64,000 nt of DNA, taken from assembly GCA_029834535.1 (NCBI GenBank), contig JAQMWT010000484.1, forward strand, positions 62,001 through 126,000, read 5' to 3'. The stretch's first letter is position 1. The number at the start of each line of letters is the position of its first letter. The position numbers were made by a program, and so were the translations under genes. The notes under the pieces were generated by a model. That model searched no databases and had not been told where the DNA came from. It saw only the letters and a list, made by a program, of their open reading frames with translations. The stretch comes from Chrysophaeum taylorii. Taxonomy: Eukaryota; Sar; Pelagophyceae; Pelagomonadales; Pelagomonadaceae. This document shows positions 2,880 to 61,989 of this stretch, piece by piece.

Positions 2880-2889
2880 CTAGGGAGTA

Positions 2890-2924
<35 letters not shown>

Positions 2925-4658: not shown

Positions 4659-4775
4659 CGACGACGTGTTCTGAACCGAAACGAACGGTCGGTCGTGTAG
4701 GAAACGAAGAGGGTTTCTTATTAAGTCACCACTGGTTGTTGTGACGATAACAATTACCCGCATCGTCGAGGGAAG

Positions 4776-17303: not shown

Positions 17304-17467
17304 TTGCCCAGGGGTAAAGAGTTGAAGGTTATGATAGGATCAACCACGCGGATACATATCCATTCAAGATGCGAAACCACTATTGTCATCATCGCCTCAT
17401 TGTTGTGTAGACTGGGTGGAGACGTCGCCCGTGCTGGCGGGGTCGATCCCAAGAGAACAAATCTTTG

Positions 17468-18710: not shown

Positions 18711-18790
<80 letters not shown>

Positions 18791-21364: not shown

Positions 21365-22212
21365 GTTTTCCCTCATCATCCCGCTGGGCCTCTGGAATGA
21401 ATGCGCAACGACGATAGAGAAGAAGATAGACTCGTGCGCCCTTGGGAAATTGACCTTATTATTTATTAGTACCCTTGATATTACGGTAGTGAGGCCTTCT
21501 TCTTTCTAGGCCTACCTTCCTGCCTGTCTGTCTGGAGTAACTTCTAGCGAGAAAGCCAGATGGCTGTATGATATGATGTATATAGACTCGATTATTTAGT
21601 GGAGCGGCTACGTACGACTAGCAACAAACATGTCAGGGAGCCGCGGGGTCGCTGAGCACGACAACGACTTAACTTCGGCCTCCTAGATAGAACACGCGTC
21701 GCTGTGATTTTTTTTTTGCCTTCTTGGCTTTCGTGTCTGTCTCAGCTCTGTCCGCCGCCTGAAGACCCGGTCTCGAGATGCCACCCAAGCCAGCGGTTGG
21801 GACGAGCGGCCACGACAGGCCGCGACGATCGATCGATCCCCCTCAATTGAATGGGGAATTGCGCGGAAGGCGGTCAGCTACTTGTGTTCTCGGCTTTTTG
21901 AAAGTCGCAGCTCGAACCTCACGAGATGTGAAGATCGCTGCACTTCAAGTCCACCAAAAAATCGACCAAGACGTTCGCGCTGCGCGTGCCACTTTCTGCA
22001 ATCCGGAGCTGGGGGTCTATCTCAAATTATTCGCGCGGATGTGGATCTCGCTCGTACCGCCGCCAGCCACGCCGAAACAGAAAAACTTCAAGTCGGCGGC
22101 GCAATAGGAGTGAAACCTAAAAATCACTAGAAAATGATACCGCAAAAAAAAAAAAAGTATCCTTCGAGAGAAAAAGAGATCTTTCGAGTCAGACATACCC
22201 TCGACGACGACT
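21365..22212 (+). other. Intergenic with one doubtful small ORF
   Basis: The frame 21778-22107 (109 aa, MPPKPAVGTSGHDRPRR start; VLGFLKVAARTSRDVKIAAL in the middle) begins with an ATG and looks mildly protein-like and basic, but no family, domain or upstream signal supports it. The rest is AT-richer than the genes, with T and A runs near 21708 and 22145, and is probably 3' and 5' untranslated sequence. Confidence 0.3.
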
Positions 22213-25023: not shown

Positions 25024-25061
<38 letters not shown>

Positions 25062-28000
25062 CCTCGAAAAAAAGCTTGTGAACGACGATGACACGCTGTC
25101 GCTTGCAGACTCAGGGTTGCTTGCTGCCGCGTTGTCGCTGGCCGTCAAGCATGACATGGTCAAGTACACCAAGACGGCCGTGAGCAGCGAGCAGGACGAC
25201 GAGGGCTCGGCAGCTGCCGATAACAGCAGGACGGCTGGAGAAAATCGCGCCTTCGCGTGGTTCGAAGACTGGCGTTTCCATGAGGAGGACGACGGCGGAG
25301 CCGACGAAACTTCGGAGAGCGGTGTGAGCTCGGCAGCCGCATCTGACGACCTTCGCCGCTGCATGTCGCTCCTCGAACAGGCGGCCGAGGGCATCACCAG
25401 GCTGTACACGCGATCTTTGGCGCGGGACGACGCTCGATTGCGGCGCGGGCTTCTTTTCGAAACACACGCCGCATGCGCCGAGCTCACCGGCGGTTCGGCA
25501 GCGGCGAAAAAGATGCCGCCGTTGCTGCGAAAGTGGGCAAAGCAGGATGTGCATCTTCTCAATCTCGCGACGAAAGGTATGCCGTCCGAGATCCTAGAGA
25601 TAGTGAACGTGGTACCCCTCGCTCGTCGGTCACACGTCAAACACGTTGTAGCGCGCTTGCGTGTTCATGCTGTGCATCAGCGACTAGTGCCGCGGGCCTC
25701 CGACGAGGAACTCCCTTCGTCGTGGTGGGAACGCGAACGCCTCGAGCGATGTCTGCGTCTCGAGGAAAGAGAGCTGGATGCGCAGCGCAAAATTGAGAAA
25801 CAGGGTCTCGCCGAGCTGCGGGCGCGCCTCAGGACCGCTGTCGACACGCTCGAGACGCTCAACCAGGCGCACCGTGTCGTGGCGGCGCAGCTGCGCGCTG
25901 TCGGCATCGTTGCTTATGACCGCAACGCAGAAACCAAGGGCCGCTTGCGCGCAATGCAGACGCACGTCTCCAATCTCGCCCAAGATGTCACTGATACCGA
26001 GGAGGACATCCTCAAGGCAATCAACAAGAAGTTGTTGAAGCTTTCATGCGGCACGTGTGAAAGCGAGCCGAAAGGGAGTGACACGGCAACAGCGGCGGCA
26101 GCAGCGGCAACGGCAGCGGTGTTGGAGACGGAGGCCGAATCACTGCGCAAAGCGAAAGAACGGCTCGAGCGTGCTCGACTCGTCTTCGATAGGTTTCGGG
26201 CCGATCGCGCCGCAAGCCTCGCCGCCCTCCACGGCACCAACCTGCACAGGATGCGCGTGCTGGAAACAATTGACGGCATGACTTCGGCAGTAGAAGCGGA
26301 GCGCGACCGCATGCGCACGGATTTGGGTGTTCACAAGCGACGATTGGCCAATGTTGCCGAAGAGCTGCGCACCGTCAGGCTTGTGCTCAATCCGGATCAC
26401 GGTGCGGACGACACTCCTGACTATCTGGCGGAGGACGACGAGGACTCGCAGCTTATAGATGCGGAAGACGAGCTGCATCAGGCCGGAGATGCGGAGGACA
26501 ACGAAGGGGCGGACCCAGACAATGACGATGCAGCCTCCGTCAGCTCAAATCTTTCGATGGATGCGGAGGAAGAGATGGACAGCGAAGATGAAAGCGAAGA
26601 TGAAGACTATGAGGACGGAGAAGACGGGAGATCCCGGAAGAAGCTGAAGAAAGCAAAGAAGCGTTCATCCAAGAAGCTCGCGGCTGTCAACGCGATAGGG
26701 CACAAGAAGCAAAAGAAAAGCAAAAGGAGGGGGGTGACGATGAGCGACGAGAACGCGCCCGAGGTGCTCCAGGCGGACAATCGTCCGTTGACGCTCGAGG
26801 AAAAGTACCAAGCTTCTCTTGATCTTCTTTTTGCGGAGGAGCGCGCCGCCATGGCTACTAATCCATTCACCGACCCCAACGACCCCGACGACGAGCTCCG
26901 TATACCCGAGGAGGAGAAGACGGAGCAAGCGAAGGACCTGAAAGCCGCAACATCGAAGGGCTCCTCGACACCAAAGATGTCAACCATGGCGACTCCATCC
27001 ACGAAGAAGAATGAGAGTAGTGGGGTCTTGCGGGAGCTGTGGAATCGCATATTAACATCGATGCGCCGTGAGAAAGAGCGGTGGGAGTTCAGCGTCCACA
27101 AGACATGCCTCGAGGACGCCGTTCTGTTCCACGAGGATGACACGCGGCCGCCACCGTCAGACTGGGAAACAATCAGTCGGATTGAGCGAATGGCAATGAG
27201 GTACACGTACGCCAACCTCGGTGAGGTTGACCCTGAGCTTCTGGAACGGCTCTACACGGAGGAGGTGCGCGAAGCCGAGCGCGAGGGCCTGCCAGTGCCC
27301 GTACATCCAACGCAGCTCCCGCCGACATTGCCGCCGTCACCGCCTGCGAAAGACGCGACAGTTCCTTGGAGGGTAAACTTGGTGGCACCCTTCCTCGCGG
27401 TTGGGGGCCCCGCCGCAGTCGCCGCTGCCGCAATCACCGCTCGGCTGGTGCGCCAAGATAGCATCGTACTCGATCGAAGCCTCGGAAACTCGATCTCAAT
27501 GGCCGACGATGTGGAGACGGTCGCGAACGCTGCCGACCATCTCAAGCACGGGGGGGCGCAAGAGACCGAGGCCGTTCGATTAAAGGCCTACGACGCCTTC
27601 ACCTGGCTCGGCGATTCGATGCGTGACGCAATTCTCACGGCCGATTTCGACCCCTACAAAGAGGATGCGCGGTTTGCCAAGATGCCTCTACCCTCGTTGA
27701 AGGAAGTTGGATCACAAGTAGACGAGCCACATTCGCCCCAGGACGACATCAACTTCGACTTTCAGTCCGTGTCATCTCCACGCGGGGACAAAGCGGCGAC
27801 AACTTCGTGTTGTTCTCAACCTGAGTTAGCGGAAGCCGAACGAGAAGTCGAATGCCCTTTGTCGGCGCCGTCTTCCAAAGAGGGGCCGTCTCCCAAAGAG
27901 GGGCCAGTAGTCGCCGAGACATTGATCAAGGCACAAGTGCGGCGGGTCGTGGAAAACGAGAGATCGCCATCACCGCAGCTCGTCTTCGCTGAGCCCACTC

Positions 28001-30486
28001 ACACAGAAGGACCGCAGATAGGGCAGGATGCAAGGCCAGAAACGTCGCCGCCTCGGCCCCACAAGCGTACGCGTGGCTCGAAGCTCGTGTGTATCGGAGC
28101 CAACAAGGCGCTTACCGACCGGCGGCCGGCGACGTCGCCGCACTTGGTGGCGAATATGAAGCCTAGTGAGGATACTTCGAGACACTTGGCGATCGATGCA
28201 GTGCGGCGACCGAATGCGCCGACCGATTTCGTGTCGCCTCCCGAGTCCTTGGCGAGTGTCGAGTCCGATGCCATCATCGCCATGCACTTCGAGGCGTCGT
28301 CGCCCGCGAACGCCGCACTCCGGCAGACGGTCGTGTGCGAGAGCTGTGGCGTTGAGAACACGATCGTCGACGTGTGCCAAAAAACGGCGGAACGCATGAA
28401 CGCGCGACGCCAAGTCGCCGCAAGTTGTGCTTTGGCACGTCCAGAGATCCGCAAGAGGCAGGTCGCGGCGGGGAAGCTCGGTCCACGCGGAGCAATGTCG
28501 TCGCTTGGCGCCCCAGCGGCACTTGCTATGCGCGTTCAGGGCGGGTGCCAAGCAGGGGCTTCGCGGCGGCTTGCACGAGCCGTTGTCAACACGGCTCGAT
28601 CGCGCCTCGCGCAGTCGCATTCGAGCCCTGAGTTTAGTCGTCGAGGCACGCTTGTCGCGCACGACGGGGGGCACACCTTCTACTCGTATGTCCCTCACTG
28701 CGACGACTCGCTCTCGGTCACCAGCACTAGCGAGCTGCCCGCGGCGACTGGAGTGAGATCATTCTCATTATTGTCGTCGTTGTCGGGGAATCACCACAAG
28801 CAACGTCCGGTTGATCCGAACGTGGATGTACGTCGGCGCGCGCTCGAGCGAAAGCCGTCGTGGGAGGCTGAGCTGGCATTGGCGGGGAGGCCCTGCCAGA
28901 CACCAAAGCAAAACAAGCGGCCATTGGTGCTCGAACGCGAGCCAATCCTCGGCCGTCACATGCACCGGCGCGCTGCGTTGCTAGCCAAGAGCTCGGTCAT
29001 CGGTCGCAAAGCACATAGCGACCTGCCACCGGTCGACGACTGCTTTGACGAAGCTGCCGTGGCGCTGCGGGCGCTGCCGATGGAGACGCGCGAATTCATG
29101 TTGTGCCAGGTCTTTGAGGCGCCAGACGCCGTCAGCCAGTCTGCCTACGACGAGCTAGAACGGGCACTCCGCGGGGAGGCGGAAGTCGATGCACAAGGGC
29201 CTTGTCACGATAATGCTGAGGGGACGGCCAACATCAGAAACGACCAGTGCGCGGAAGTCAAAGAAGAAGACCTTCAAGGTCAACAAGGCTCGATTACAGA
29301 AGACCTAAGTGAAGAAGTGCCCGAGTCTGAGGAGGCTGACGAGTCGTCGGGAAGTAGCGCCCTCGTAACACGTACTGGGTGCCACCTTCCCAGCGTTGAC
29401 GAGGAGATCGCGAGGGCTTTTCAAGACATTGTCACGGGGCTCACCAAGAGCCTGGCACAGGATGCCAAAAAAAGGCCTTTGAAAAAACAACGGCGTACCC
29501 CGACGCGGCGCGCCGCGACCGCGCCGTGCCCGCTCCCAGTTGTCGTCGAAGATTCTCTAGAGCCCGTCGTAGAAGTGGCGCCTCTAGCCTTCGTGGTTCC
29601 GCGTACTAGGACGGGTGCCAAGCGAGTGACAGAATGCGATTTGCGTGCCTCGCGCGCGGCCGCGGACGACCGGGTGCGGTGCCTCTCGACGAAGCGCCAC
29701 GCGTTCAAAAAGGCAACCGATGCTGCTCACCGCCGCCTGCGCGCGCCAGCTCCCGCGTCCCTGCAGCTTCCCGAGCTCATGCCCCTAGAAGCTGCATCGC
29801 AACCCTCGATGATGCTCGAAGCACCAGCTGTCGTCGTCCCGGAAACTGAATTCGTGCCTGTCGATAACAAATTCGTGCAGAAGTACGAAAAGAAGGACGA
29901 CGACAAAGAGTCGCTGGAGCAAGAGGAGTCTGATGAAGACTCATCGTTGTCGCGACCGACGACAGCGGCATCCATGACGTTGCCCGCGGCTGGCCAGCGT
30001 CGAATGGGGCGCCGGGCAGCCGTGAAGAAGAAGAAGAAGATCGCGCGAGCTGTCTCTGCCATCACGGCCGCCAATCGCCTTACGCAGCCGATCATACGCG
30101 TCCGCAAGCCCCCCAAGCAGCCGAAGAAACGTCTCGAACGGGCCGACTCGGTCGGCTTGGGCTCACAACGCGGCCTCCACTGCGAGTCATCGAGCGTAGG
30201 CGTAGTCGACCGCGATGCCCTCGCATGCATCCGCAAGGCACTCGGTCGCGACGACGAGTCAGTCTTCACTCGACGGTCGACTGCCGATGACGACGACTTT
30301 TTAACGCGCGACGACTTCGTAACGTTCGACGACGTTCCAACGTCCGAAGAGGACTTTGTTGTCCCTGCGAAGCAACACGCCTTCCACGGCCTGGGGGACA
30401 TCGCCGACTTCTCGCGACGCGTTGCCCAGATCCAGAGGGACCATATCATCCGTTCGAAATTCATGGCAAGCATTGGTGGCGATTGA
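22213..30486 (+). CDS. Giant ankyrin-repeat, SFI1-like protein (2757 aa)
   Basis: A single-exon 2757-aa protein. Residues about 110-520 contain many Trp-centred helical units such as KKYVAWRKRQQVRLRHHVRA and RAWRAVATADTFF, with the spacing of SFI1/centrin-binding repeats found in centriole and basal-body proteins. Residues about 626-725 hold ankyrin repeats (LCDAADAGDLETVEKLLEAG, ATPLHLAAAHYDDRYVGVVA). An Asn run follows at 938-950, then coiled-coil segments (about 1175-1400), an acidic block and a Lys-rich likely nuclear or microtubule-binding stretch (KKLKKAKKRSSKK, about 1476). The C-terminal 1200 residues are low in recognisable domains. A cytoskeletal or basal-body role is inferred from the SFI1-like units only. 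The 5' ATG is the first in a long clean frame. Confidence 0.7.
25001..25062 (+). repeat. Microsatellite in coding sequence: ATTAAC then AAC repeats
   Basis: Four ATTAAC units are followed by about 12 AAC units, giving an Ile-Asn then poly-Asn stretch within the giant ankyrin protein. Confidence 0.95.
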
Positions 30487-39603: not shown

Positions 39604-39766
39604 TGAGTATTGGACAGTTTTAAACTGGTTTAAAACCTTAAAATCTGGATTAAACTTTTGTCGGTGTTAATTATTACAGGTCAGGCAGAAATGAGAAGAG
39701 CTGCCCGCAAAAACGGGTAAGTGTCAAATCCGTCGCGGAAACATGGCGGCGTTCACGACGTGAACG

Positions 39767-42700
39767 ATGGAGGAGCTCGCGCGCAGCGTGGTCGAAGGAC
39801 GCGTGGCGTTTGAGCGAGCCGTGGATGTCAATGTCCGCGGTGGCGACGCGGTCGCGCGACGGGAGAGGTTTGCACGGCTCGTGTTGGCCGAGCTCGAGGA
39901 GGGGCGATCATCATGTCGCGCGGCGTCGGCGGCGACGGCGGCGTGCGTCGCGCTTTGCGTGTTGCAGGATGCGAAAAGCGGCGAGGCGACCCGGCTCGCG
40001 CGGCAGTTTGTGCAGCTCGCCGAGGCCGCGACGCGCGGTCCAGCGACCGATGCGAAAAAAATGAGTCGGCGCGCAATAGGCTTACTGCGGGCGCGGCCCC
40101 AAGCAAAGGAGGCGGTGTTGCGCGCGGCCGAGCAGAACGGGTCGGCAACTGTGGCGCCAGCGCTGGTGGGTGCGGTTGAACTCTTCGTCGACCGGTGGCT
40201 CTCGCGCACCGACAACAACATCGAGGGCGTCGTCGTCGCGGTTCACGACGCACTCAAGCCAATGCTCGGCGTGTTGACCGAGACCAGCGGCGGCAAGCGG
40301 CGACGACCTGTTGCGAGGACCTCGCAGTGGGTCGAGAGCGTCGCGATGGGTCGCGAGGGCGCGCTGCGGCAGGCGACGCCGGCACTCGGCCGCTCCCTCA
40401 AGCGGTCTCCGGCTTCTGCGTCGCGCGTCTCGTCGCTCGTCGCCGCCGCCGGCGGGTGCGCGCCCGAAGACGCGGCCTCGCTCGCCGCCGCCGCCGTGGC
40501 GTCCACGGGAAACACGTTGAGCGTCTTCGAGGCGCTCTCCAAGTTTGGCGAGGCGGCCGTCGCTGCCGCCGTCGGCGCGATCAAAGACGCGCGATGGCCG
40601 GGCCTCGCGGCGTCGCTGGGCGCGCTCGCGACCGACGACGCGAGCGTCGAGACGGCCGAAAAAGCGGTGGGCTGCTTGCTGAAGAACGACGAGGCCGCGC
40701 TCGAGGCCCTGTGTGCGTGGGCACCGCGGCTCGATCCGTCGTCCTCCCTCGCGGTCGACGTCGCCGCGCTCGCCACGAAAGAACTCGAGACGACGAAGAA
40801 GCTCGGACCCGCGCTGCGACTCGTCGCGAGCGTCGTCGAACCTTGGGCAGCGTTGTTCAAGCCGGCGGACCTGGATGTCGCGATGACCAAGGCGCGGAGG
40901 AAGGCGACAATGTCGTCGGCGACGGTCGAGAGCCGGAGGGACCACGGCCTCTGCCTCTACGCGCTCGCCGTCCTCGCCGACGGCAAGCTCGACTGGACCA
41001 AGGACGAGGCGCTCGCCTTCGACGACGCCGACGACGATGATCTCGCACTCGTCGCTGCTTGTGGCCTGGCGCGGCTCACCAAGCTAAAAAACTGCCCGGT
41101 CGTGGCTCGGCGGAGAGCTTGGGCGTGTGTCGCGACCGCGGCGGGGTCGGCCGCGCCGCGCGTCAAGCGAGCCGCCGAGCGCGCCGTCGACGCGATCTCG
41201 TCGTCTTCGGGGCTCGTTTGTTTCTACCAAGCGCTTTGGACGCTGCTGGGCGATCGCACCAAGCCATTGAACTACGCCGAGGCCCTTCGAAACTGTTCCA
41301 AAGGGACGAACCTGGCGGCCAAGGCCGAGCGCGAGTACGCGGCGCTCGTGTGCCACCATCCTAGAACGACGCGCGCGGCGGCCGCGTGCCAATCTCTCTG
41401 GCACCGCGTGGTCGTCCACCGCGCGCAGCGGCAAGCACCCTCGTCGGACAACAACGGGGAACCGCTGGTGGATGCGCTCACCTCGGGCAACCGCGACCAA
41501 ATCGAGGCGGCGGCGCTCTCGCTGGAGGTGCTCTTCCACACGGCGCACTATCTCGGCGCGACGAACTATCGTCCCAAGGCTGCTGCGCTCGAGGCGCTCG
41601 CGTCGCACCTCGAGGCGACGCGCAAGCTCGCCGCGGAGGATCTCAAGGCCTACCTGGGTCGCATCCAGAAGGAAGAAGACGCCCCGGGCCTCTTTCTCAA
41701 ACCGACCACCATCTCCAAGGCGGCGAGCTCGGGATCCAAGGGAAAAAACGCGGCGGGGTTAAAGAAAAAGAAAGACGACACGTCGATGCTCCTTCAGGCT
41801 GCTGGCTTGAGCAGCAGCAACAACAACAACAAGTCAAAGACTAAACAGCAGGCTGCTCCTCCGAAACCACAACAAGAGAAGCACGAGTCGTCGTCGTCGT
41901 CGTTCGAGGCGGTCGTGGCGGCGGCGGCGGCGCGCGTCGCGGCCAAGGCGGCCAAGGCAAAGTCGCTGCTGCGAGCCGCGGAGCGCGCGGCTAGCCTGGC
42001 CCCCGACGCCTGTACCGAAGTGTGGCCCGGGTTCCTTTCTTCGATCGCGGAGACGGCGGTGGCGACTGCCGTGGACCTCGACGCAGCACTCGAAACGTCC
42101 GAGTTCGACGATTTGGCGACGGGCACGTGCGCGGAGCTCTACCGCGCGGCCGCGAGACCGCGAGCGCCACGACATCCGCGACAGACGGGCCGTGCGGTGG
42201 CGCTGGCCTTTGCACCCGCCAACACTAGAAAAGTGCAGTGGTCCGCCGACGACGAAGTTGCGGTCGCTGCCGCCGTCGAGGACGTCGCGGCCAACTTGAA
42301 GGGCGTGAAATCCCTGACGCCGCTCGCGAGGCTGGGGTCGCGCGTCGCGTGCGCCGCGCTCGAGCACTCGGCCGCGGCCCGATCTCGGCGGCCCAAGGCG
42401 GCCGTCGAGGCGCTCGGCACGATGTCCCACGTGCTTGGCATCAAGGCGCGCGCGGCCGCTCTGAAGGCGTTGGTCGTGACGTCGGCACGGAGCGGCGACG
42501 ACAAGGAGCCCGCGGCGGTCATCTTGTCGCTCTGCTGCAACGCGCCCGAGACCGACGCGCACGTGCTCGTGCCGCCGCTGCTCGGCGTCGAGAAGGGCGC
42601 CGTCGCCCCGCTGGGCGTCTTCGACGCCAAAGCGCGCGTTCGGTGCGGCGTGCTCGCTGCGTGCTTGATTCTGGTGTCGCGATGCGGCGCCGTGCTCGAC

Positions 42701-45700
42701 GTCGACCAGATGGTGTGCGTGTGGATCGCCTCGTTTTTCCGCGCCGAAGACGACGCCGCCGCCGCCGCCGCCGCCGACGAGATCCCTGATGGCGCCAATC
42801 TTATGGATGAGCTCTCCGACGTGTTCGCCGACTCGCGGGACCTCCTGCCGCGCGACGTCTTTGGGTGCCGGGGAGTGACCAAGGGTTCGGGCGCGACGGT
42901 CGACGCCAAAGCGCGAATGCTCGCGCGCGCGGCGTGGGCGCGCATGCTCGAAGACGGGCACCACCGGTCGTCGAAGGAGGAGGACGACGACGCCGGAGTC
43001 GTGGTGTGGATCGACGACAATTTCAAGGCTCCGATCGCTTCGGTGACGCGCGTCGCCCTTGTCGAGAACGACGACCCGGATGCCGACGACGAGTACGAGC
43101 GCGTCCGATCTGCCGCTCGCCGCGCGCTCGCGTCGCTCGCGAGCTCCCGGTCGTCTTCCGAAAAAGATAACGCCGCCACGATCACCGCGCACTTGCGCGA
43201 GGACTTCGACGCCCACGCACCCGACCAGGCCAATAAGCTTACGAAGCAGAAAGCAGTCGTCGCGGACGACGCCGATCCCGAGGCGTACCTCTCGCGGCCG
43301 CCCGACTACGATCCGGTCGCCGAGGCACGCGAAATGCGGGCGCTGCGCGACGCCGAGCAGCGCAAGGTAACGACCGACGCGCGGCGGCGCGAGCGCGTGG
43401 CGAAAACGTTGGCCGAATGCGTGCGAAGGATCGGCCGCGCGCCGGCGGATCTCCTCGGGTGGGCGCGCGCTCGGCTCGGCGATCCTGACGCGGACGCGCG
43501 CCAGGCGGTGCTCGACGTCGGCGCGGCCATCGTCGACGCCGACGTCGACGCGGCGCTCGACACGCTGTTCGCGCTGTCGCAAAAGTCCGAAGAGAAAAAC
43601 TCGACCATCCGCCTCGGCGTGACGGCTTTGCTCGGGCGCGCGGCCAAGAGCCTGGGCGAGGGCGACGGTCGCGTCGCCGACGTCGCCGACCAGCTCATTT
43701 CGGCGCTCACCTCGGCGGCCTCGGACGCGCCGGTCGTCGACAAGAAGAACAATAACACCAAGAAGATGGAGCGGACGGAGCCGTCTTCGTCTCACCAGGT
43801 GAGACCGCAGCGCAAGGCCAACGCGACGACGACGACGACGACGACGACAAAGACGGCTTCTCGGGACTTGATGTCGAACAAAGCGACGCCGATGACAGGG
43901 GCGGCGGCGATTACTGGAATGGTCGGCGCGGCGCCGGGCACGGGCAAAAAGATGTCGATGATGAACGTCAAGGCGGCGCAGGCAAAGCGGCAGGCGACGG
44001 TGCTCCGCGCCTCGCTGACGGAGTCGACCAAACGCAAGGCGTCGGCCGCCGAGCTGCAGCGGCGCCAGGCCGAAGGCATCCTCTCGGAAGCGTCTTCTTC
44101 GGCGCCCGTAGCCGGAGTGCGGTCGTACGAGGCGCTCGCGGCGGCCGACGAGGCCGCGCAACGGTCGATCGCCGACGGCCTCGTCCCGGTTGCCAAGTCG
44201 CTCAAAAAACAGGGCGAGCGCGGGGGCGAGCTCGTCGACCGGCTCGCCGGGCTTTGCTTTGGGGGCGGACTCGAGGGCAGCGCGTTGCGACGCAAGGGCG
44301 CGGCGCGCGGGCTCGCGGCGGCCGTCAAGGGCCTCGGCATCACGGCGCTCAAGCAGCGTGGCGTCGTGGGGAAGATCGAGGCGGCGCTCGACGAGGCGTC
44401 GTCGATCGACGACAAGCACGGCGGCCTCGTCGCCGTCGAATGTCTGGCGGAGCGCCTCGGCGTGCTGTTCGAGCCGTACGAGATTGCGCTCCTGCCGTCG
44501 TTGTTGCGGTGCTTTGGGGACGGCACCGAACTCGTGCGCGAGGCGGCCAAGTCGGCCGCTCGCAAGGTGTTCGAGGGCCTCTCGGCCCACGGCGTCAAGC
44601 TCGCGCTCCCGACGGTCCTCGAGGCGGCCGCGGGCGGCGAGCACGGCGCGACGCACTGGCGGCCGCGCGTCGCCGCGATCGGCATGCTCGGGACGGCCGC
44701 GCATTGTGCTCCGAAGCAGCTCGGCGCCGTGCTGCCCAAGGCCGTGCCGGCGCTCGCGTCGGCGCTCGGCGACACGCACCCCAAGGTCCGGGAGGCGGCC
44801 AAGGACGCGTTGGCCGACGTCGGCTCGGTTGCCAAGAACCCAGAAATCAAAACGCTTCGTGCCGAGCTTCTCGAGGCGCTCTCGGATCCGGCGCACGCGA
44901 CGCGCGGCGCGCTCGACGCGCTCTTGGCGCGCGAGTTCGCGCACACGCTCGACGCCCCGTCGGTCGCGCTCGTCGCGCCCATTATCCAGCGCGGGCTACG
45001 GGATCGGCTCGCCGAAACAAAGCGGCGCGCGGCGGTGGTGCTCGGTAATCTCGCGGCCATGTCGAGCGCGGCGGCCGACACCGTCGGCCCGCATCTCGCG
45101 TCGTTGCAGCCACTGCTCGAGGCGGCCGCCGTCGCCGACGCGCACCCCGACGTCCGGTTTTCGGCGGCGATGGCCCTCGCGCAGGTCGTCGGGTCTCTAG
45201 GGATCGGGCGCGTCCCTTTCGCCGTCGAGCGGCTGTGCAACGCGGCGCTCGCGCGCAGGGCGTCGTCTCCCGAGATCGGCGACATCATCGCGGTCAAGTC
45301 AACCGGGGACGGCGGGAGCGACGGCGGGCTCCTGGCCGGCGCGGCGTCGGGGAGCTCGGAGCGCGCGGGCGCCGCGCAGGCGCTCGCCGCCGTGCTGCGC
45401 GAGCTCGGCGACGCGGCCATCGCCGAGACGCTGACGCGCGAGGTCATCCCCATCTCGAGGCATGCGTCGGCCGCGGGCCGCGAGGGCGCTCTGTGGGTCG
45501 TGCGGTACGCGACCCGCGACGAGCAGTTCGACTCGAGCCTGGTGCCCGAGGCGCTCGCGGCCGTCCTCGAGGGCCTCGCCGACGACGCCGACCCCGTGCG
45601 CGAGACGGCGCTCGTCGCCGGCAAGCAACTCGTGCGCGCGCACGGCGAGACCGAGCTCCCCGTGCTGCTGCCGTCGCTCGAGGGCCGGCTCTTGGCGCCG

Positions 45701-47860
45701 ACCTGGCGAATCCGCGCGGCCGCCGCGACGCTCATCGGCGAGCTCCTGTACGTCGTCGGCGACGCCAAGCCCGTCGGCTTCTCGGAGCGCGACGCCGAAG
45801 CCGACGACGCTCTCGGCGACGAGGCGACAGCCGCCGCGATCGAGCGCGCCGTCGGCAAGGCCGCGTGGCGCAACACGCTCGCCTCCCTCTACATCGCGCG
45901 CCTCGACGCCGTCGCGGCCGTCCGGGCGGCGGCCCTCGACGTCTGGAAGACGGTCGTCCCCAACACGCCGCGCGCGCTCCGCGAAATTCTCGCGACGCTC
46001 GTCAAGCGCCTCGTCTCGATGCTCGCGCCCGACGACGCCGCCCGGGGAGGAACTGCCGCCGCCGACACCGGCCGCCGCCGGCGCCAAGCCGCGAAGGCGG
46101 CGCGCCGCGCCAGCAAGGCGGACGAGGCTGCTCGCTCTTCGTCGGACGACGAGGAGTCGGACTCGGAGGACGACTTGGGCGACGACGCGACGGCCGAGGG
46201 GCAGTGGGTCGCGTCCAGGACGGCCGAGCGGCAGCGGGTCGCGTCCAGGACGCTGGGGGACGTCGTCAAGAAGATCGGGGACCGCGTGATCCCCGAGCTC
46301 ATCCCTTTGCTGCGCGAGTCGTTCGACGCGGGGGACGAGGCGACGCGCGTCGGGGTGTGCCTCGGCCTGGCCGAGGTCGCGGCAGCCGCCTCCAAGCAGC
46401 AGGCGCTCGAGCACCTCGACGCGCTCGCGCCCGCGATCGAGTCGGCGCTCCTGCGGCCGCACGGCGAGGGCGGCTTCAGCGAAATCGTCATTTCGCACGC
46501 GGCGGTCGCCTTCCACGAGCTCCACGGAACCGTCGGGTCCGCAGCCCTCGAGGCGATCGTCCCCAAGATCCTCGCGCGACTCGAGGACGACGACGAGGAG
46601 GCCGCGATCGTCGCCGCTCGAGAAATATCGCGCCGCCGCGCGCGCGAGCTCCTCGCCGTCGTCGTCCCAAAGCTCCTCGCGACGCGCCCGCTCTCGGCGA
46701 ACCGCGCGCGCGCGGCGAGCGCGATCGCCGACGTCGCGGGCGCGCTGCTCGGGCCCTACGTCGGCTCGGTCGCCCGCGCCGTCATCGCCGACCTATCCGA
46801 CGACTCTAATTCTGCCGCTGACCTCCTCGTCGCGTGCGCGGCCGACGTCGCCGCGAACGCGGCCGTTTCTGGCGACGCCTCGAGCGTCGTCAACCAGCTA
46901 GCCTCGCCCTTCGCCTCCTCGCACCTCGCGCGCTGCGCCGCGACCGTCGTCGCGGCCTTCTTCGCGAACCTCGAACCGCGCCTCGCTCGCAGAGAGGACA
47001 GGCGCGCGCCGATCAACGAGGCCGCGCCGCGGCTCCTCAAGGAGCTCGTCGTGCTCCTCGCCGACCCCGACCCGGCCGTCCGCGCGCCGGCCGTATCGGC
47101 GATCGCGGCCTACTCGACCTCGACCCCCGTCGATCTTCAGGTGGACCACCTCGAGTTCCTTCGCGTCGCGCTCTCCTCGACCTCCTCGGACGCGCGCCTC
47201 CGCCTCAAGCGCGAGGTCCCCGTGCCCGCCATCTCCGAAGATCCCGCGGCCCTCGCCGCCCTCTTGCCGCCCTACCTCCACGCGCTTCTTCACGGTACGC
47301 CCGAAAAACGAGAGTCGGCCGCCTCGGGCATCGCCGAGCTCGTCGACCTCGCGACCGAGACCTCCCTCAAGAAACACGCCGTCAAGATCGCCGGACCCCT
47401 CATCCGCGTCGTCGGCGACCGCTTCTCCGCCGAGGTCAGAGCAGCCATCCTCAACGCCCTCGCCGCGCTCCTCAGAAAATCACCCCTTCTCCTCAAAGCT
47501 TTCGTACCCCAGCTCCAGGCCTCATTCAGCAAGTCCCTCCGCGACCCCGCCTCGAGACCCGTCAGATTGCGCGCCCTCGCCGGCCTCAAGCTCCTCGTCC
47601 CGCTCTCGCCTCGCCTTGACCCCCTCGTCGGCGACCTCGTTTCGCACGCCCGTCCCGACGACGACCCTGACGTCGCCCTATCCATGCTCCACGGCCTCGC
47701 CGCGGTATTCGCCAATCTCGCGTCGGGCAAAACCATCGGTGACGATGCCACCTCGCGAGCGACACGTCTGGCCGACTCTTTGAGTGATCACGACCTTCCC
47801 GCCCTTGCCGACGCGGCCTCCGCGCTCAAAGCCGCGATCGAATCTCGTCGCTTCCCTTAA
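39767..47860 (+). CDS. GCN1: GCN1, eIF2-alpha kinase activator (2697 aa)
   Basis: GCN1 is a giant HEAT-repeat protein that binds stalled or collided ribosomes and passes the amino-acid starvation signal to the eIF2-alpha kinase GCN2. The single-exon 2697-aa product is made of helical repeats throughout. The eEF3-like central part has QRGLRDRLAETKRRAAVVLG, then NLAAMSSAAADTVGPHLASL. The GCN2-binding C-terminal part has KKHAVKIAGPLIRVVGDRFS, then LLRKSPLLLKAFVPQLQASF. Length agrees with the family (about 2600-2700). Low-complexity insertions (Thr run near residue 1357, Ser/Asn/Lys near 680) and a 30-bp in-frame tandem duplication (46191-46250) are local additions. The strong GC bias makes long antisense open frames, which I treat as shadows. 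Confidence 0.95.
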   Translation: MEELARSVVEGRVAFERAVDVNVRGGDAVARRERFARLVLAELEEGRSSCRAASAATAACVALCVLQDAKSGEATRLARQFVQLAEAATRGPATDAKKMSRRAIGLLRARPQAKEAVLRAAEQNGSATVAPALVGAVELFVDRWLSRTDNNIEGVVVAVHDALKPMLGVLTETSGGKRRRPVARTSQWVESVAMGREGALRQATPALGRSLKRSPASASRVSSLVAAAGGCAPEDAASLAAAAVASTGNTLSVFEALSKFGEAAVAAAVGAIKDARWPGLAASLGALATDDASVETAEKAVGCLLKNDEAALEALCAWAPRLDPSSSLAVDVAALATKELETTKKLGPALRLVASVVEPWAALFKPADLDVAMTKARRKATMSSATVESRRDHGLCLYALAVLADGKLDWTKDEALAFDDADDDDLALVAACGLARLTKLKNCPVVARRRAWACVATAAGSAAPRVKRAAERAVDAISSSSGLVCFYQALWTLLGDRTKPLNYAEALRNCSKGTNLAAKAEREYAALVCHHPRTTRAAAACQSLWHRVVVHRAQRQAPSSDNNGEPLVDALTSGNRDQIEAAALSLEVLFHTAHYLGATNYRPKAAALEALASHLEATRKLAAEDLKAYLGRIQKEEDAPGLFLKPTTISKAASSGSKGKNAAGLKKKKDDTSMLLQAAGLSSSNNNNKSKTKQQAAPPKPQQEKHESSSSSFEAVVAAAAARVAAKAAKAKSLLRAAERAASLAPDACTEVWPGFLSSIAETAVATAVDLDAALETSEFDDLATGTCAELYRAAARPRAPRHPRQTGRAVALAFAPANTRKVQWSADDEVAVAAAVEDVAANLKGVKSLTPLARLGSRVACAALEHSAAARSRRPKAAVEALGTMSHVLGIKARAAALKALVVTSARSGDDKEPAAVILSLCCNAPETDAHVLVPPLLGVEKGAVAPLGVFDAKARVRCGVLAACLILVSRCGAVLDVDQMVCVWIASFFRAEDDAAAAAAADEIPDGANLMDELSDVFADSRDLLPRDVFGCRGVTKGSGATVDAKARMLARAAWARMLEDGHHRSSKEEDDDAGVVVWIDDNFKAPIASVTRVALVENDDPDADDEYERVRSAARRALASLASSRSSSEKDNAATITAHLREDFDAHAPDQANKLTKQKAVVADDADPEAYLSRPPDYDPVAEAREMRALRDAEQRKVTTDARRRERVAKTLAECVRRIGRAPADLLGWARARLGDPDADARQAVLDVGAAIVDADVDAALDTLFALSQKSEEKNSTIRLGVTALLGRAAKSLGEGDGRVADVADQLISALTSAASDAPVVDKKNNNTKKMERTEPSSSHQVRPQRKANATTTTTTTTKTASRDLMSNKATPMTGAAAITGMVGAAPGTGKKMSMMNVKAAQAKRQATVLRASLTESTKRKASAAELQRRQAEGILSEASSSAPVAGVRSYEALAAADEAAQRSIADGLVPVAKSLKKQGERGGELVDRLAGLCFGGGLEGSALRRKGAARGLAAAVKGLGITALKQRGVVGKIEAALDEASSIDDKHGGLVAVECLAERLGVLFEPYEIALLPSLLRCFGDGTELVREAAKSAARKVFEGLSAHGVKLALPTVLEAAAGGEHGATHWRPRVAAIGMLGTAAHCAPKQLGAVLPKAVPALASALGDTHPKVREAAKDALADVGSVAKNPEIKTLRAELLEALSDPAHATRGALDALLAREFAHTLDAPSVALVAPIIQRGLRDRLAETKRRAAVVLGNLAAMSSAAADTVGPHLASLQPLLEAAAVADAHPDVRFSAAMALAQVVGSLGIGRVPFAVERLCNAALARRASSPEIGDIIAVKSTGDGGSDGGLLAGAASGSSERAGAAQALAAVLRELGDAAIAETLTREVIPISRHASAAGREGALWVVRYATRDEQFDSSLVPEALAAVLEGLADDADPVRETALVAGKQLVRAHGETELPVLLPSLEGRLLAPTWRIRAAAATLIGELLYVVGDAKPVGFSERDAEADDALGDEATAAAIERAVGKAAWRNTLASLYIARLDAVAAVRAAALDVWKTVVPNTPRALREILATLVKRLVSMLAPDDAARGGTAAADTGRRRRQAAKAARRASKADEAARSSSDDEESDSEDDLGDDATAEGQWVASRTAERQRVASRTLGDVVKKIGDRVIPELIPLLRESFDAGDEATRVGVCLGLAEVAAAASKQQALEHLDALAPAIESALLRPHGEGGFSEIVISHAAVAFHELHGTVGSAALEAIVPKILARLEDDDEEAAIVAAREISRRRARELLAVVVPKLLATRPLSANRARAASAIADVAGALLGPYVGSVARAVIADLSDDSNSAADLLVACAADVAANAAVSGDASSVVNQLASPFASSHLARCAATVVAAFFANLEPRLARREDRRAPINEAAPRLLKELVVLLADPDPAVRAPAVSAIAAYSTSTPVDLQVDHLEFLRVALSSTSSDARLRLKREVPVPAISEDPAALAALLPPYLHALLHGTPEKRESAASGIAELVDLATETSLKKHAVKIAGPLIRVVGDRFSAEVRAAILNALAALLRKSPLLLKAFVPQLQASFSKSLRDPASRPVRLRALAGLKLLVPLSPRLDPLVGDLVSHARPDDDPDVALSMLHGLAAVFANLASGKTIGDDATSRATRLADSLSDHDLPALADAASALKAAIESRRFP
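46191..46250 (+). repeat. 30-bp in-frame tandem duplication within GCN1
   Basis: GCCGAGGGGCAGTGGGTCGC and the next ten bases are repeated at once with two changes, adding ten residues (AEGQWVASRT, then AERQRVASRT) in a charged loop after an acidic stretch. Confidence 0.9.
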
Positions 47861-50934: not shown

Positions 50935-53007
50935 TCAATCGTAGTCCGCGTGGACAGTCGGCTCCTCGTCGGGAGGCGGCGACGAGGTGAAGTCGTCGTC
51001 GCCGCCGCCCGAGTAGGACGAGTCGGCCGCGTACGCACGTTCAATGATGGGTTTCGCAGTCGCCTCTAGGGTCTCTCGTTTTTCGTCGTAGTCCTCCTTT
51101 GTCGGCGCGTCGTCGCCCGTCGCGGAGTGGTGGTCGAGCCAGTCTATGACGTCGGCGACGGCGTCTTGGAGGGCCTTGGCGTCATCTTCGTTGAGCTTGT
51201 CTTTGAGAGCATCAGTGGCCGAGGCCTTGAGGGAGTAGGCATAGGTCTCGAGGCTGTTTCTGGCCTCGATCGTCGCGCGGTGCTTGGCGTCTTCCTGCGC
51301 ATACTGTTCGGCCTCGCGGATCATGCGTTCGATTTCCTCCTCGCTTAGCCTGCCCTTTTCGGACGTAATCGTGATTTGCTGTTGCTTGCCCGAAGCTTTG
51401 TCGACGGCGGAAACGCTCAGGATGCCGTTGGCGTCTACGTCGAACGCGACCTCAATCTGCGGGACGCCGCGCGGCGCGGGGGGAATACCCGCGAGCTCGA
51501 ACTTGCCGAGTTGGCGGTTGTCGCGGGTGAGGGACCTTTCGCCCTCGTAGACTTGGATAAGGACACCCGGCTGGTTGTCGCTGTAGGTGCTGAAGATTTG
51601 CGTCTTGCGCGCCGGGATCGTCGTGCCGCGGTCGATGAGCTTGGTCATGATGCCACCGGCCGTCTCGATACCAAGCGAGAGTGGCGTGACGTCCAACAAG
51701 AGCACGTCCTTGGTCGCATCGGCCGCCGCGCCCGACAAGATGCCTGCTTGCACGGCGGCGCCGTACGCGACGGCCTCGTCGGGGTTGACGCCGCGGTTGG
51801 GCTCCTTGCCGTCGAAGAAGTCGCTCAGGAGCTTCTGGACTTTGGGGATGCGCGTCGAGCCGCCGACAAGGACCACCTGGTCGACGTCGCTCTTGGCGAC
51901 TCCCGCGTCCTGCAGGACGCGTTGGACGGGCAAGAGCGTCCGCTGGAACAAGTCGTTGTTGAGTTCCTCGAACTTGGCGCGCGTCACGGTGAGCGCGAAA
52001 TCGATACCTTGGTGTAACGCCTCGATGTCGATGCTGGTCGACGTCGACGAGCTCAGCGCTCTTTTCGCAGCTTCGCACTGCTTGCGGATGCGCTGGAGGG
52101 CGCGCTTGTCGCTGGAGATGTCGATCTTGTTCTGGCGCTTGAACGCCTGGATGCAGTGGTCCATGAGGCGCTGGTCGAAATCCTCGCCGCCGAGGTGCGT
52201 GTCGCCCGCCGTCGCCCGCACCTCGAAGACCCCGTTGTCGATGGTCAAGAGCGTCACGTCGAAGGTGCCTCCCCCCAAATCGAAGACGAGCACGTGCTCC
52301 TCCTTGGCGCCAGACTTGTCGAGGCCGTACGCTATCGCCGCCGCCGTCGGCTCGTTGATCACGCGCTCGACCTTGAGCCCAGCGATCGCGCCCGCATCCT
52401 TCGTAGCTTGGCGCTGGGCGTCGTTGAAGTACGCCGGCACGGTCACCACGGCGCGCGTGATCTTCTCCCCCACGAACGCCTCGGCCGTCTCCTTCATCTT
52501 TCCGAGCACCATCGCGCTGATTTCCTCGGCCGTGAAGCCCTTTCGCTGCGCGCCGAGCATCACCTCGAACTTGGGCGCGCCGTGCGAGTCGCTCACCACC
52601 TTAAAGGCGAAGTGCTTGATGTCCTCCTTGACCGACGCGTCGGTGAATTTTCGGCCGATGAGTCTCTTGGCATCGTACACGGTGTTGGCCGGATTTTGTG
52701 CCGCCTGGTTCTTTGCCGCGTCCCCGACCAGCCGATTCCCGTCTTTCAGGAACGCCACGTACGACGGCGTGATGCGGTTCCCCTGGTCGTTCGGGCAAAT
52801 CTCGACGCGACCGTTCTGCCAAACCCCGACGCACGAGTACGTCGTCCCGAGGTCGATACCAATACAAGGACCCTCATCTTTCGCCGCGCTCTTAGCCCCG
52901 CCGCGCGAGGGCCGCAGCGGGCTGGGTGCGCCCCAGACGCTCCAGCTCAGCAGCCCCACCACAAACCACGCGGGCGCTCTTCGCCGTCGATTCATTCGAA
53001 CGAACAC
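50935..53007 (-). CDS. BiP-like Hsp70 with signal peptide but no HDEL/KDEL
   Basis: A complete 690-aa Hsp70 of the ER (BiP) type: [70 protein letters not shown] and the substrate domain [20 protein letters not shown]. The N-terminus is a signal peptide ([18 protein letters not shown]; the second Met at 52995 is the likelier start). BiP normally ends HDEL or KDEL, but this one ends EPTVHADYD, stop. Either retention works differently or the protein moves on. In algae with secondary plastids an Hsp70 with a signal peptide and no retention signal can serve the periplastidial compartment, and the Pro/Ser/Arg-rich stretch after the signal ([11 protein letters not shown]) would fit a transit-like region. 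Divergent from the hydrolase gene, starts 104-116 bp apart. Confidence 0.92.
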
Positions 53008-53111
53008 ACCACAGGGATCGCTGTGGGCTCACCCCCGCGTAAAAATCTTTCATCGGGGGGGGAGCGCAGGATACCTCTACTACTTTTCGAATACTTCGAA
53101 AAAAAACAACA

Positions 53112-56508: not shown

Positions 56509-59500
56509 TTAACCTACGACCGGCGCAGGCTGTGCTCGGATTCCGACGTCCGGTCCAGAGATTCGAACCGGAAGGACGTAAGTGACGTCTGCCATCCGGA
56601 GCAACGTAGAGACCATCTCCTGGGGAGTGCGTTCGGCCGTCATGTCAACCTGGAGGCCAATTTGAAAAATATAGCCGTCACTCTCGTCGTGGACCGGGTT
56701 GAGTGTGAAAAGGCACTGGAAAGCTTGTTGGGCCTGCGTGTAGTTGTGGAGCTTGCACACGAGCGGGTTCTCGCTTCGGAGCGCATCGACGATTTCCTGG
56801 ATGATGAAGCTTTCGCTTTTGGCCCCCTGCAGGAACGAGCACGGCAGCCCGATCTGGCCTTTGCCGTAGCCCGTGACGCGGGTGAAGCCGGCGTTGATAT
56901 AGATGAGTGGCCTGTAATCGACGAGGACACGAGTAGGTTTTTGTTGCTGTTATTGGACGACTCACAATCCTGGGACACGCATGTCGGAAGCCACGAGGCC
57001 GATGTCCTTGAGAGGCGAAGAGGCGCCGTGGAGCATATCGAGGAAGAGACTCTCGCGACTCGCGGGGTTGACAACTGCGGAGCACACAGTCAAAAGGCGC
57101 GACCAGGTTTTTTTTTCGAGTTCGCGCTTGCGGAGTGCGAGGAACATTTTGGCCCCGTGGATCGAATTCAGGAAAAGCGCGATGTGCGCTCGGGCGAACG
57201 TGCCAATCCACGTGTCGTACCAGCGGCTCATGTCCTGAAAGGTAACAAACCAATCGGCACGGTCCATCGCGCCGACGTCGATGTCGCTCGTGGTGAAGTA
57301 GAAGGCGGTATCGTTGTTCATCTGTGAATGTAGCTTGAGAACTTTATTCTTGCGCTCCGCCTCGTCGCTCGACTCGAGAATGTCGTGGAACATCTTGATA
57401 AATTGGAGCGCGCTATAGAGGATGGGTCCTGCGCGCTCCGACAGGTGACTTTCGAAGTGCGACATGCCGAGGTCGTCGCCAATGATGGTTCGCATGGTCT
57501 CGGGGGGTGTCAGCAGCCACCGCAGCCTGGTGAAGGCGAAGCGCTGCGGCAAAACGTCAACTCTCGTTTCAAAGCTCGCTGCGTCGAGGAGGCTGCCGTT
57601 GCTGTTTGATCCTTTCATCACCATCATTTGGTCTCTTCCCTTGGGCGACGACAACGGAGACGACGACGACTCCCTCCGTCGCGGCGACGACGGCCGGATC
57701 CGTGCAGGCGAGATGTCGGACGAAGCAACCGCCGACTGCGAGTGGTCGTATCCATCCCAAAACTCGGGGAGATGCTCGGGCCTAGGCAACACGCCCTGAA
57801 ACGGGAGATGGCGCGGTAGGAGTTGGAGTAATTTGTCCAACCGCCCGAGCTCGGTTGGTATGGTTCCGGTGTCGGTGATCTCGAACTGGACGCCGATGCA
57901 ATATCGGTAGATGCCGTCGGCGTCGATGATTGGGCGCATCGTGAGCAAGTTCGAGAACTTGGACCCGGACTTCTTGTAGTTGGTAATCAGGACGTGGCAG
58001 TCTTGAGCGGCAGCGAGAGTGCGAGAAATGACCTCTTTGGACTTTCGCTCGGTCGCCGGACCTTGCAAAAATCGACAGTTGCGGCCGACTGCTTCCTTGT
58101 ATTTGTACCCGGTCGTTTCGCAGAATTTTGGGTTGACATACACCATGGGCGCGCCGGCAATTGTCATGTCGGCGACGACGATGCAGGTCGGCCATGAGGT
58201 GATAGCGGCAATGAGCGCATGGAGCCACTGATCAATATTCCTTGGTAGGAGTGAGGCGCCCGCCCGCGAAAAGGCTTCGGCAGCCTTGCGTGCCTTGGCA
58301 TCGTCGGCGCCGGAGCGTGCTAAATTACTCAGCGCGCTCGAGTGTTGAGAGAGAAGATAGCGGGGGAAGCTGTCGATGGCAAGCATGCGCAACGTGTTAC
58401 GCGCGTCACAGACGATGAGGTTGTAGACATCAACTTCTGTGGTGACGCACGCACCATCGTAAAGTTGCCTCCAGACTTCAGCCGTCTCTGGCGTACGGTC
58501 GTGGTGTGCGAGGCCGCACGCATTAGCGATCTCCTCGCACTTCACCACGCTGGCGTCCTTCACGGTTCTCACCTTGGCCTGTGCCATCTTGGCGTTGTAG
58601 TCTTTTAGCAGTCGCCGTGCGTGTCCTTGAATCTCGCTGTTAGGGATTTTACCTGCGATGAAACGGCGCTTGAGTTCGATCGATTCGGTGTAAAAATCGA
58701 GAATGGGCCGATTGCCTTCCATATCTAGGAAAGCCCCGAAACTCGAGTAGCCCTCGGTTGTCTCGAGCATCAAACCGAGCGCCGTCTCGGCTTTGGTAAG
58801 CCACGACGAGTTCGCAAGTGCTGTCTTCAAATCTATCGCGGCCGTTGCTGAAAACGTCTCTGCAATTGGCCGCCCGTGATCGTCTAAATACGTGCCCGGC
58901 TGTATATTGGACACCACTTTGCTCGAATCCTTCTTCAAGTTTGCGTTGGCAGCCGCTTTGGAGATCTGAGCCTTGGCCACATCATCGTCGACTAGACGCG
59001 GCCACAGCGCACGAACCTCCACGTCGTGCGCGCAGTCGCACATCATCGTCCTTGGCAGTCCTGCAAAAAGCCCGTCGACTGACGTTAAAAGCTCGACGCG
59101 ATCGTCGGAACCTGCCGCTATCTCCATGTCAACGTAAGCCACGATTTGATATCGCTTGTTCTTTGGTGTGTCGCCGTCGACCGTCGCCGACACGTAGATA
59201 GGATGAAGCGCCACCAGGCAGTGGAATTCCTTGCCGTTCTTCTTGTGCTGGATAAGCTTCACTGCTTTCGGACTCTCGTCAGCCCACGCTGTGTCGAGCT
59301 TCTTGACGAGGGCTTCCGACGTCTTTGGGCCATTCAAAAATCCGAATTCCTGCCCGACCAGTGTAGTCCCGACGTGCCCAGTGACCTGCTCGAATCCAGG
59401 CACATTTGCGTGCACGACCTTCCGGCTGCTGCCCTCCTCCGCGCCCACAACCGCAATTGCCACGTTTTCGAGCGCAGAGAAAGCATTAGAGCAGAGCTCG

Positions 59501-60091
59501 AGAAAATATCCATCGTCGTCCGTCGGTGTCGTGCCCGCCGCGACCGTCCGCGCTGCGCTTGTCTCGACCATCTTGCCATCCAGCTCGAGCTCGCGAATCA
59601 ATCTCACCAGAGCAACGCCTATGCGCGCGCGAATTTGTTTGAATCAACGCGAAAACATCATCTTCACCCGAATTGGTGCGCATCAACCGCGGCATGAAAT
59701 ACTGCGCGAGGAAGGTAGCAGACACGACCGTCGCGGTGTCGAGATCGGCCTCGATTGGATCCCAGTCAAAGTCGTGCCGACGAAGCGTTCCATATGCGAT
59801 CTCGTTCTTCGTGCAGTAGAACATTGGATTTTGATGTTTGCGCCTATGCAGATCGAAAAGAGCAGAGATCCTCGCCTCGCCCTCGTAGGCCCGCAACTCG
59901 ACGGCCTCTTTGACGAACTGCACGTGCACGCGCACCAACGGATGACACATCGCATTTGCGAAGTCGGATATCACGCTGGCGGCCCCAGGTAACGCCAAAA
60001 GGTCTTCGACGACCTTGCGCCCTCTCTGCAGCCATGAGATCCGTGTTAACGCGAAAATCGTGGCAGACCAATCGCGTCGATTTGCCTCCAT
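56509..60091 (-). CDS. Triple RGS-LOV photoreceptor-like protein (1159 aa)
   Basis: Exons 59668-60091, 56966-59618 and 56509-56911 join over GT-AG introns of 49 and 54 nt (donors GTGAAG and GTGAGT) into 1159 aa. LOV domains bind flavin and form a light-driven cysteine adduct; RGS domains speed GTP hydrolysis by G-alpha proteins. The central LOV (about 605-725) is canonical: YVNPKFCETTGYKYKEAVGR, then NCRFLQGPATERKSKEV, Cys656. The C-terminal LOV (about 1000-1125; PLIYINAGFTRVTGYGKGQI, then GLPCSFLQG) keeps Cys1050 but changes the flanking Asn and Arg. The N-terminal PAS/LOV (about 185-310) reads GQEFGFLNGPKT, with no Cys. Helical RGS-like segments precede each: weak at about 25-145, good at about 420-500 (TALGLMLETTEGYSSFGAFL), fair at about 845-975. 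A pairing of RGS and LOV is known from fungi and some algae; three alternating pairs is what I infer here. Confidence 0.85.
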
Positions 60092-60411
60092 CGCGCTCCT
60101 GCAAGCGTTGCGTAGATAGTTTGGTCACAAAGAAAGGATCCCACAACCGCACACTGGTACGCGCGACGTCGACACGCGAGTGTTGCGTTGCTAAGTTCTC
60201 CGGAGCAAGTTGGCGAAGGCGTTAATTATTGGTGTCCACGACTGCTAGCCGATATCTTGCCTTCGTGCACTCTGAATATGACAGTCACGTACATTAGCCA
60301 ACAAGGCGATACACTCTTGCCACGTATGAAAGCAAACAGGAGTTACAGAGTACACTACAATTGTCCTGGAACTTTTTTTTTTCATTCTTCCTAACTTGTA
60401 AATAGGAAAGG
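60092..60411. other. Upstream region of the RGS-LOV gene, nothing specific seen
   Basis: AT-richer than the genes. No extra exon, tRNA or repeat found. It would contain the promoter of the photoreceptor gene on the minus strand. Confidence 0.3.
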
Positions 60412-60680
60412 TTTGTTTGTCTGTCTTTAAATGTCGACTGCTAAGAGGGGGGGGTGTGTGTGGGGAGCATGAAGGATGTGGGTGGGTTTGTGGGGTATGA
60501 GGGATGTGCCTGACGGGCGGAGATAAGTACGCGGGACCTAGTCGGGGTCATCGCCGAGGCGTGGGGCAGGCGAAGAGAGGACGGGCCCCGCCCGTAGGTC
60601 GTACGCATGCTGCCGCCGGACGTATGTGCGACGAAGGGTGACGTCCTGCTAGGATCGGGCGGCCTGGGCGGGGTTCCCCG
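60412..60680 (+). repeat. Right-end repeat, copy 1 (unit plus 200-bp body)
   Basis: It begins GTTTGTTTGTCTGTCTTTAA, then ATGTCGACTGCTAAGAGG, and continues for more than 200 bases (ending GGATCGGGCGGCCTGGGCGG) that recur almost unchanged at 61727-61989. In this copy the sequence runs on into the nuclease-like ORF, whose 3' end it contains. Confidence 0.9.
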
Positions 60681-61505: not shown

Positions 61506-61989
61506 CTGTTTGTTTGTCTGTTTTTAAATGTCGACTGCTAAGAGGGGGGGGTGTGTGTTTGTTTGTCTGTCTTTAAATGTCGACTGCTAAGAGGGGGTTT
61601 GTTTGTCTGTCTTTAAAGGTCGACTGCTAAGCCTAAGAGGGGGGTGTGTGTGGGGTTTGTTTGTCTGTCTTTAAATGTCGACTGCTAAGAGGGGTGTGTG
61701 TGGGGAGCATGAAGGATGTGGGTGGGTTTGTTTGTCTGTCTTTAAATGTCGACTGCTAAGACGGGGGTGTGTGTGGGGAGCATGAAGGATGTGGGTGGGT
61801 TTGTGGGGTATGAGGGATGTGCCTGACGGGCGGAGATAAGTACGCGGGACCTAGTCGGGGTCATCGCCGAGGCGTGGGGCAGGCGAAGAGAGGACGGGCC
61901 CCGCCCGTAGGTCGTACGCATGCTGCCGCCGGACGTATGTGCGACGAAGGGTGGCGTCCTGCTGGGATCGGGCGGCCTGGGTGGGGTTC
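61506..61989 (+). repeat. Array of five GTTTGTTTGTCTGT...GTCGACTGCTAAG units, then repeat copy 2
   Basis: Units begin near 61506, 61557, 61598, 61658 and 61727. Each holds GTTTGTTTGTCTGT, TTTAAATGTCGACTGCTAAG (one has AAAGGTCGAC) and a G run with GTGTGTG, and they vary in length from 41 to 69 bp. The last continues as a full second copy of the body seen at 60412-60680 and is cut at 61989 by an LTR. Confidence 0.9.

Follow-up and report, generated by a model that had tools for sequence, protein, structure and literature searches.

A probable helmchrome-type tandem RGS-LOV protein, shortened and diverged, in a stramenopile genome

The window analysed here (a stretch of genomic DNA of 64,000 nucleotides) contains on its minus strand (60091-56509) a gene of three exons, which after removal of two introns encodes a protein of 1159 amino acids followed by a stop codon. 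The protein consists of three modules, in which RGS-like and LOV-type domains alternate. We consider it probable that this gene belongs to the helmchrome type of blue-light receptors with tandem RGS and LOV domains, as a shortened and diverged member, and that its host is a photosynthetic stramenopile capable of forming flagella.

Gene structure and relatives in the same genome

The exons and introns of the window gene are as follows:
59668..60091, minus strand: exon 1, amino acids 1-141 and the first base of codon 142
59619..59667, minus strand: intron 1, 49 bp, GT..AG
56966..59618, minus strand: exon 2, rest of codon 142 to the first two bases of codon 1026, inside an 893-aa open frame
56912..56965, minus strand: intron 2, 54 bp, GT..AG
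56509..56911, minus strand: exon 3, end of codon 1026 to amino acid 1159, and the stop codon

An earlier note on this DNA had proposed two mini-introns and a product of 1159 amino acids, and this gene model held up. In addition to the GT..AG ends, both joins are free of gaps in an alignment with three intronless paralogue segments from the same genome (37-38% identity to the window protein); the nearest gap is a single residue, about 7 residues past the second join, in the rows of the window gene and of its paralogue on contig C594. Exon 1 was matched by the paralogues on contigs C524 and C594 at 38-41% identity (tblastn, window). The splicing as modelled rests on sequence and paralogues.

Upstream of the gene lie six copies of a 53-nt repeat (60410-60462 and five at 61507-61777) and a duplicated stretch of 227 nt (60450-60676 and 61763-61989, 99% identity). 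Other ORFs in the window encode, by Pfam, a molybdopterin oxidoreductase with a cytochrome b5 domain (2880-4973), an ODAD1-type coiled coil (17411-19174), a 2782-aa ankyrin protein (22138-30486), a 2698-aa protein with EF3/GCN1-type HEAT repeats (39764-47860), and an HSP70 (50935-53028).

When the 70.8-Mb genome was searched with exon 2, 31 matches came up, two of them being the window gene itself; the best of the others had an E value of 4.2e-107, so the repeat is not a chance resemblance. The matches fall on the window gene, on the five genes listed below (named by contig), and on other LOV- or PAS-type genes. The RGS-LOV family thus has at least six genes in this genome, window gene included:
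C524:544125-555893: 3923 aa in a single intronless ORF, eight LOV motifs, C-terminal coiled coil
C594: 2172 aa, four LOV-type domains, all with the Cys; first module and C-terminal coil present
C493: 1570 aa, partial module order
C166:116884-121572: 1563 aa, partial module order
C5: 1313 aa plus an upstream exon, partial module order

The full alternating order is found in C524 and C594. In C524, RGS-A/LOV-A modules alternate with RGS-B/LOV-B modules, and the LOV motifs alternate between GRNCRFLQG and GKKC[ST]FLQG. Its third and seventh modules (A2 and A4) are identical over at least 573 consecutive bases (553355-552783 and 548732-548160), outside which the compared stretches of DNA are 33-87% identical between the two modules. 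This identity reflects either a recent gene conversion or an assembly effect, and we cannot tell which. No kinase domain was detected by Pfam in the family members scanned, and a single scan of viral contigs with exon 2 found no relatives there. In a further ORF of 521 aa (C122:115668-117230), the LOV motif is canonical, and ankyrin is matched only weakly, under the cut-off.

In module trees, all three window modules have their nearest relative in C594: module 1 groups with its B1 (support 96/97), module 2 with A2 (94/96), and module 3 with B2 (92/93). The support mark of 95/80 was passed by the grouping of module 1 only, and this module was flagged as a long branch. Because its modules group with B1, A2 and B2 of C594, the window protein resembles a four-module one that lacks the first module. 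A C-terminal coiled coil is present in C524, C594 and C5 (BLAST), and by iterated profile also in C493; BLAST found the coil at three places in the genome, none of them on the window contig (C484) and none near the gene in the window. The sibling genes point to a four-module ancestor (A1-B1-A2-B2) that carried a coiled coil at its C-terminus; of these parts the window gene keeps only B1-A2-B2.

The first module and the coil might instead lie on further exons, the gene model being incomplete. A possible splice acceptor (TTGCAG) does directly precede the start codon. However, elsewhere in the window no related sequence scored better than E 0.39, and genome searches, in which only the best candidates were scored, found no related sequence on C484 beyond the gene's own two matches to exon 2. 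We therefore regard an incomplete model as very unlikely.

The marker genes indicate a photosynthetic stramenopile host with flagellum genes. The genome contains three bZIP-LOV genes (aureochromes, called stramenopile-only in the abstract of one publication), 80 matches to light-harvesting proteins, two matches to IFT57 over the cut-off, and G-alpha genes in the form of two complete ORFs and a third in pieces. From these markers, the host would be capable of flagellum formation and of signalling through heterotrimeric G proteins. Matches to RGS domains number 16, of which 7 are in the RGS-LOV family.

The three LOV-type domains

The domains of the window protein, in order from the N-terminus, are:
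59455..60061, minus strand: RGS-like domain 1, type B, aa 11-196, spanning intron 1; 209.1 bits with a family profile that was iterated within the family and shows family membership only
59050..59418, minus strand: LOV1, degenerate, aa 209-331; Phe at 59344-59346 in the place of the adduct Cys
58216..58818, minus strand: RGS domain 2, type A, aa 409-609; Pfam stretch aa 425-534
57811..58182, minus strand: LOV2, canonical, aa 621-744; adduct Cys656 at 58075-58077
56992..57540, minus strand: RGS-like domain 3, type B, aa 835-1017
56569..57003, minus strand: LOV3, type B, aa 1014-1140, spanning intron 2; Cys1050 at 56839-56841, altered flavin pocket

LOV-type motifs occur at aa 230 (GQEFGFLNG), aa 653 (GRNCRFLQG) and aa 1047 (GLPCSFLQG). 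Pfam detects PAS_9 in two stretches of the protein (2.2e-30 overall), and in exon 3 alone at 1.3e-8. The domains were compared at nine flavin-contact positions, named and numbered as in oat LOV2. LOV2 agrees with the aureochrome row at eight of the nine, with Ser at the R467 position; its best PDB chain, named as a histidine kinase, matched at 2e-21, and phototropin-1 at 1.8e-20. LOV3 keeps the cysteine and is canonical at five of the nine positions, cysteine included. LOV1 lacks the adduct cysteine, is canonical at none of the nine, and has an end branch of 3.1 in the LOV tree, where its placement is unsure.

The count of three LOV domains in the earlier note is thus borne out as three LOV-type motifs, with the reservation that the first domain is PAS/LOV-like and has no LOV cysteine. 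The multi-step switch of three light sensors built on that count does not stand: three light steps is the wrong description, since LOV1 lacks both the reactive cysteine and all nine checked flavin contacts, and the pocket of LOV3 is altered. From these residues, LOV2 would absorb blue light and form a cysteinyl-flavin adduct, LOV3 may form the adduct weakly or with other kinetics, and LOV1 is predicted to be a structural PAS domain.

Among 20 aligned LOV-type domains of the family, an alignment that leaves out the intron-split first LOV and a PAS remnant of C5, the cysteine is kept in 18; the exceptions are the window LOV1 and the A domain of C166 (its first LOV, GGNLGVLQG), which is far from the window LOV1 in the LOV tree. 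Of the 11 type-B rows, five share a non-canonical pocket, with Lys, Ser/Thr and Cys at three of the contact positions and the adduct Cys still in place; these are the four LOV-B domains of C524 and the first one of C594. The full Lys, Ser/Thr, Cys set is not present in the other six.

The state of LOV1 bears on a reading in which the window gene derives from a helmchrome-like gene with four modules and is a copy in decay, now functionless, that has lost both its ends and in which LOV1 has degenerated. The first module and the coil were indeed not found, and LOV1, on its very long branch, is without all the flavin contacts checked. Nevertheless, the reading frame has remained intact over a long period of divergence, as there is no internal stop in 1159 codons despite just 37-38% identity to the paralogues; both introns have kept GT..AG, and LOV2 retains eight of nine contact residues. 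Decay is on this evidence unlikely; a very recent inactivation of the gene is possible.

The RGS-like domains

The earlier note had placed an RGS-like domain before each LOV domain, and profile searches with PF00615 and PAS_9 separated the middle module from the outer two. PAS_9 was recovered as described above. RGS domain 2 is borderline with the Pfam RGS profile (PF00615), scoring 21.2 and 22.1 bits, and 24.5 bits in the genome search, around a cut-off of 23.9. All four RGS-A domains of C524 score above the cut-off, and a type-A profile (nine rows, two identical) matches solved RGS domains in the PDB, with a best E value of 2.5e-10. Neither RGS-like domain 1 nor domain 3 has a Pfam RGS match, and a type-B profile searched against the PDB gave no RGS domain, only five rows of Cas9 fragments (E 1.1-1.9).

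The type-B profile aligned with the type-A profile over 160 columns with a score of 41.9. In 198 of 200 column shuffles the score was at most 20.2 (the best over 59 columns); the other two reached 133.0 and 131.9 in alignments of only 5 and 6 columns. Against a profile built from eight further RGS proteins encoded in the genome, type B scored only 22.9 over 32 columns; the best control was 17.1, among the 77 of 150 shuffles kept for having at least 15 columns. Both AlphaFold models made from the window sequence alone resemble RGS domains, each with a mean pLDDT below 50. For the exon 1 model (AF2, mean pLDDT 48.1), chains of RGS-homology domains occupy rows 1-30 of the 48 shown. A Foldseek search with the models gave no match under E 0.001.

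Domains 1 and 3 could alternatively be helical linkers unrelated to RGS domains, as the missing Pfam and PDB sequence matches, the score of just 22.9 against the other RGS proteins, and the Foldseek result would allow. This is quite improbable given the match of type B to type A over 160 columns, and given that the 30 best aligned rows of the exon 1 model are RGS-homology domains. The RGS-like assignments of domains 1 and 3 are accordingly supported, by the profile match to type A and by models of low confidence, but not proved.

RGS domain 2 keeps an Asp-Ser-x-x-Arg stretch, and does not keep a Glu-Asn stretch that is present in RGS10. Residues of both stretches have roles in G-alpha contact, and GTPase acceleration by this domain is uncertain.

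Proposed function and known systems

We propose that blue light absorbed by LOV2 would lead to a flavin adduct, that the adduct would alter the packing of the LOV domain on the adjoining RGS-like helices, and that the altered packing would change the contact of these helices with a G-alpha subunit or with the membrane. In siblings with the coil, this response would be linked to the flagellum. The window protein, which has no coil, may be a modulator that is soluble or sits elsewhere. Flagellar location and G-protein action are both predictions.

It is also conceivable, though a long shot, that the family forms a modular light meter, in which LOV A domains with a canonical pocket alternate with LOV B domains, whose fullest form has the Lys, Ser/Thr, Cys pocket, and in which modules have grown in number up to eight, widening the range of light read by flagellar G-protein signalling. 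That this pocket is complete in just five of the 11 type-B rows makes the idea less probable. With a single canonical sensor and without the coil, the product of the window gene would then modulate the response by competing against the long forms for a shared G-alpha. We find the eight-LOV sibling on C524 a greater surprise than the window gene. In the literature searched on RGS-LOV proteins and helmchrome, titles and openings of abstracts contained no protein with eight LOV domains.

Helmchrome is a candidate for the receptor through which blue light steers the swimming cells of stramenopiles. Since forms with eight, four and three modules occur beside complete G-alpha genes in one genome, the idea of a link from light to G protein can be tested directly, and natural truncations, including one with a blind LOV domain, would be useful for dissecting the role of each module.

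Among known systems, aureochromes are likewise LOV proteins of stramenopiles, and differ from the window protein in having a bZIP effector and one LOV domain. The fungal protein BcLOV4 has a single RGS and LOV pair. As available descriptions have it, BcLOV4 shares with the window protein the presence of RGS and LOV in one chain, and a review lists it as binding lipid. By title and start of abstract, the papers found on an RGS domain with a LOV domain concern fungi or optical methods; the term RGS is absent from the main text of a 2025 review of algal photoreceptors.

A single RGS-LOV pair of the fungal type was considered for the window gene and rejected, as the gene has three modules, which group with multi-module genes. 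A further alternative is a soluble light-gated regulator of the membrane or of G proteins, similar to BcLOV4 and without a flagellar role. It would fit the lack of the coiled coil common to C524, C594 and C5, and the listed lipid binding of BcLOV4. We consider it rather unlikely, as the window protein has three RGS-like and three LOV-type domains against one of each, and its modules belong with the multi-module family. The parallel that the earlier note drew with fungal RGS-LOV pairs passes over a closer match, the stramenopile helmchrome.

Helmchrome has four LOV domains. In a 2024 commentary (PMC10967245), stramenopile proteins with RGS and LOV domains go by the name helmchromes, and a paper is cited whose title concerns their distribution in phototactic swarmers. 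Short descriptions present helmchrome as a putative photoreceptor of the posterior flagellum. The record of the brown-algal helmchrome (CBJ26132.1) is named as a hybrid histidine kinase, which counts somewhat against the assignment, as Pfam detected no kinase domain in the family members scanned. As helmchromes are already known in stramenopiles, the window protein does not represent a new kind of RGS-LOV chain. It differs from helmchrome in its three modules, its blind LOV1 and its lack of a coiled coil. It resembles helmchrome in combining several RGS and LOV domains in one chain (for RGS-like domains 1 and 3, on the basis of a profile match and of models of low confidence), and the hosts are alike in that, by its marker genes, this one too appears to be a photosynthetic stramenopile with flagellum genes. 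The putative link is drawn from architecture, host type and short descriptions; in architecture and host the fit to helmchrome is good.
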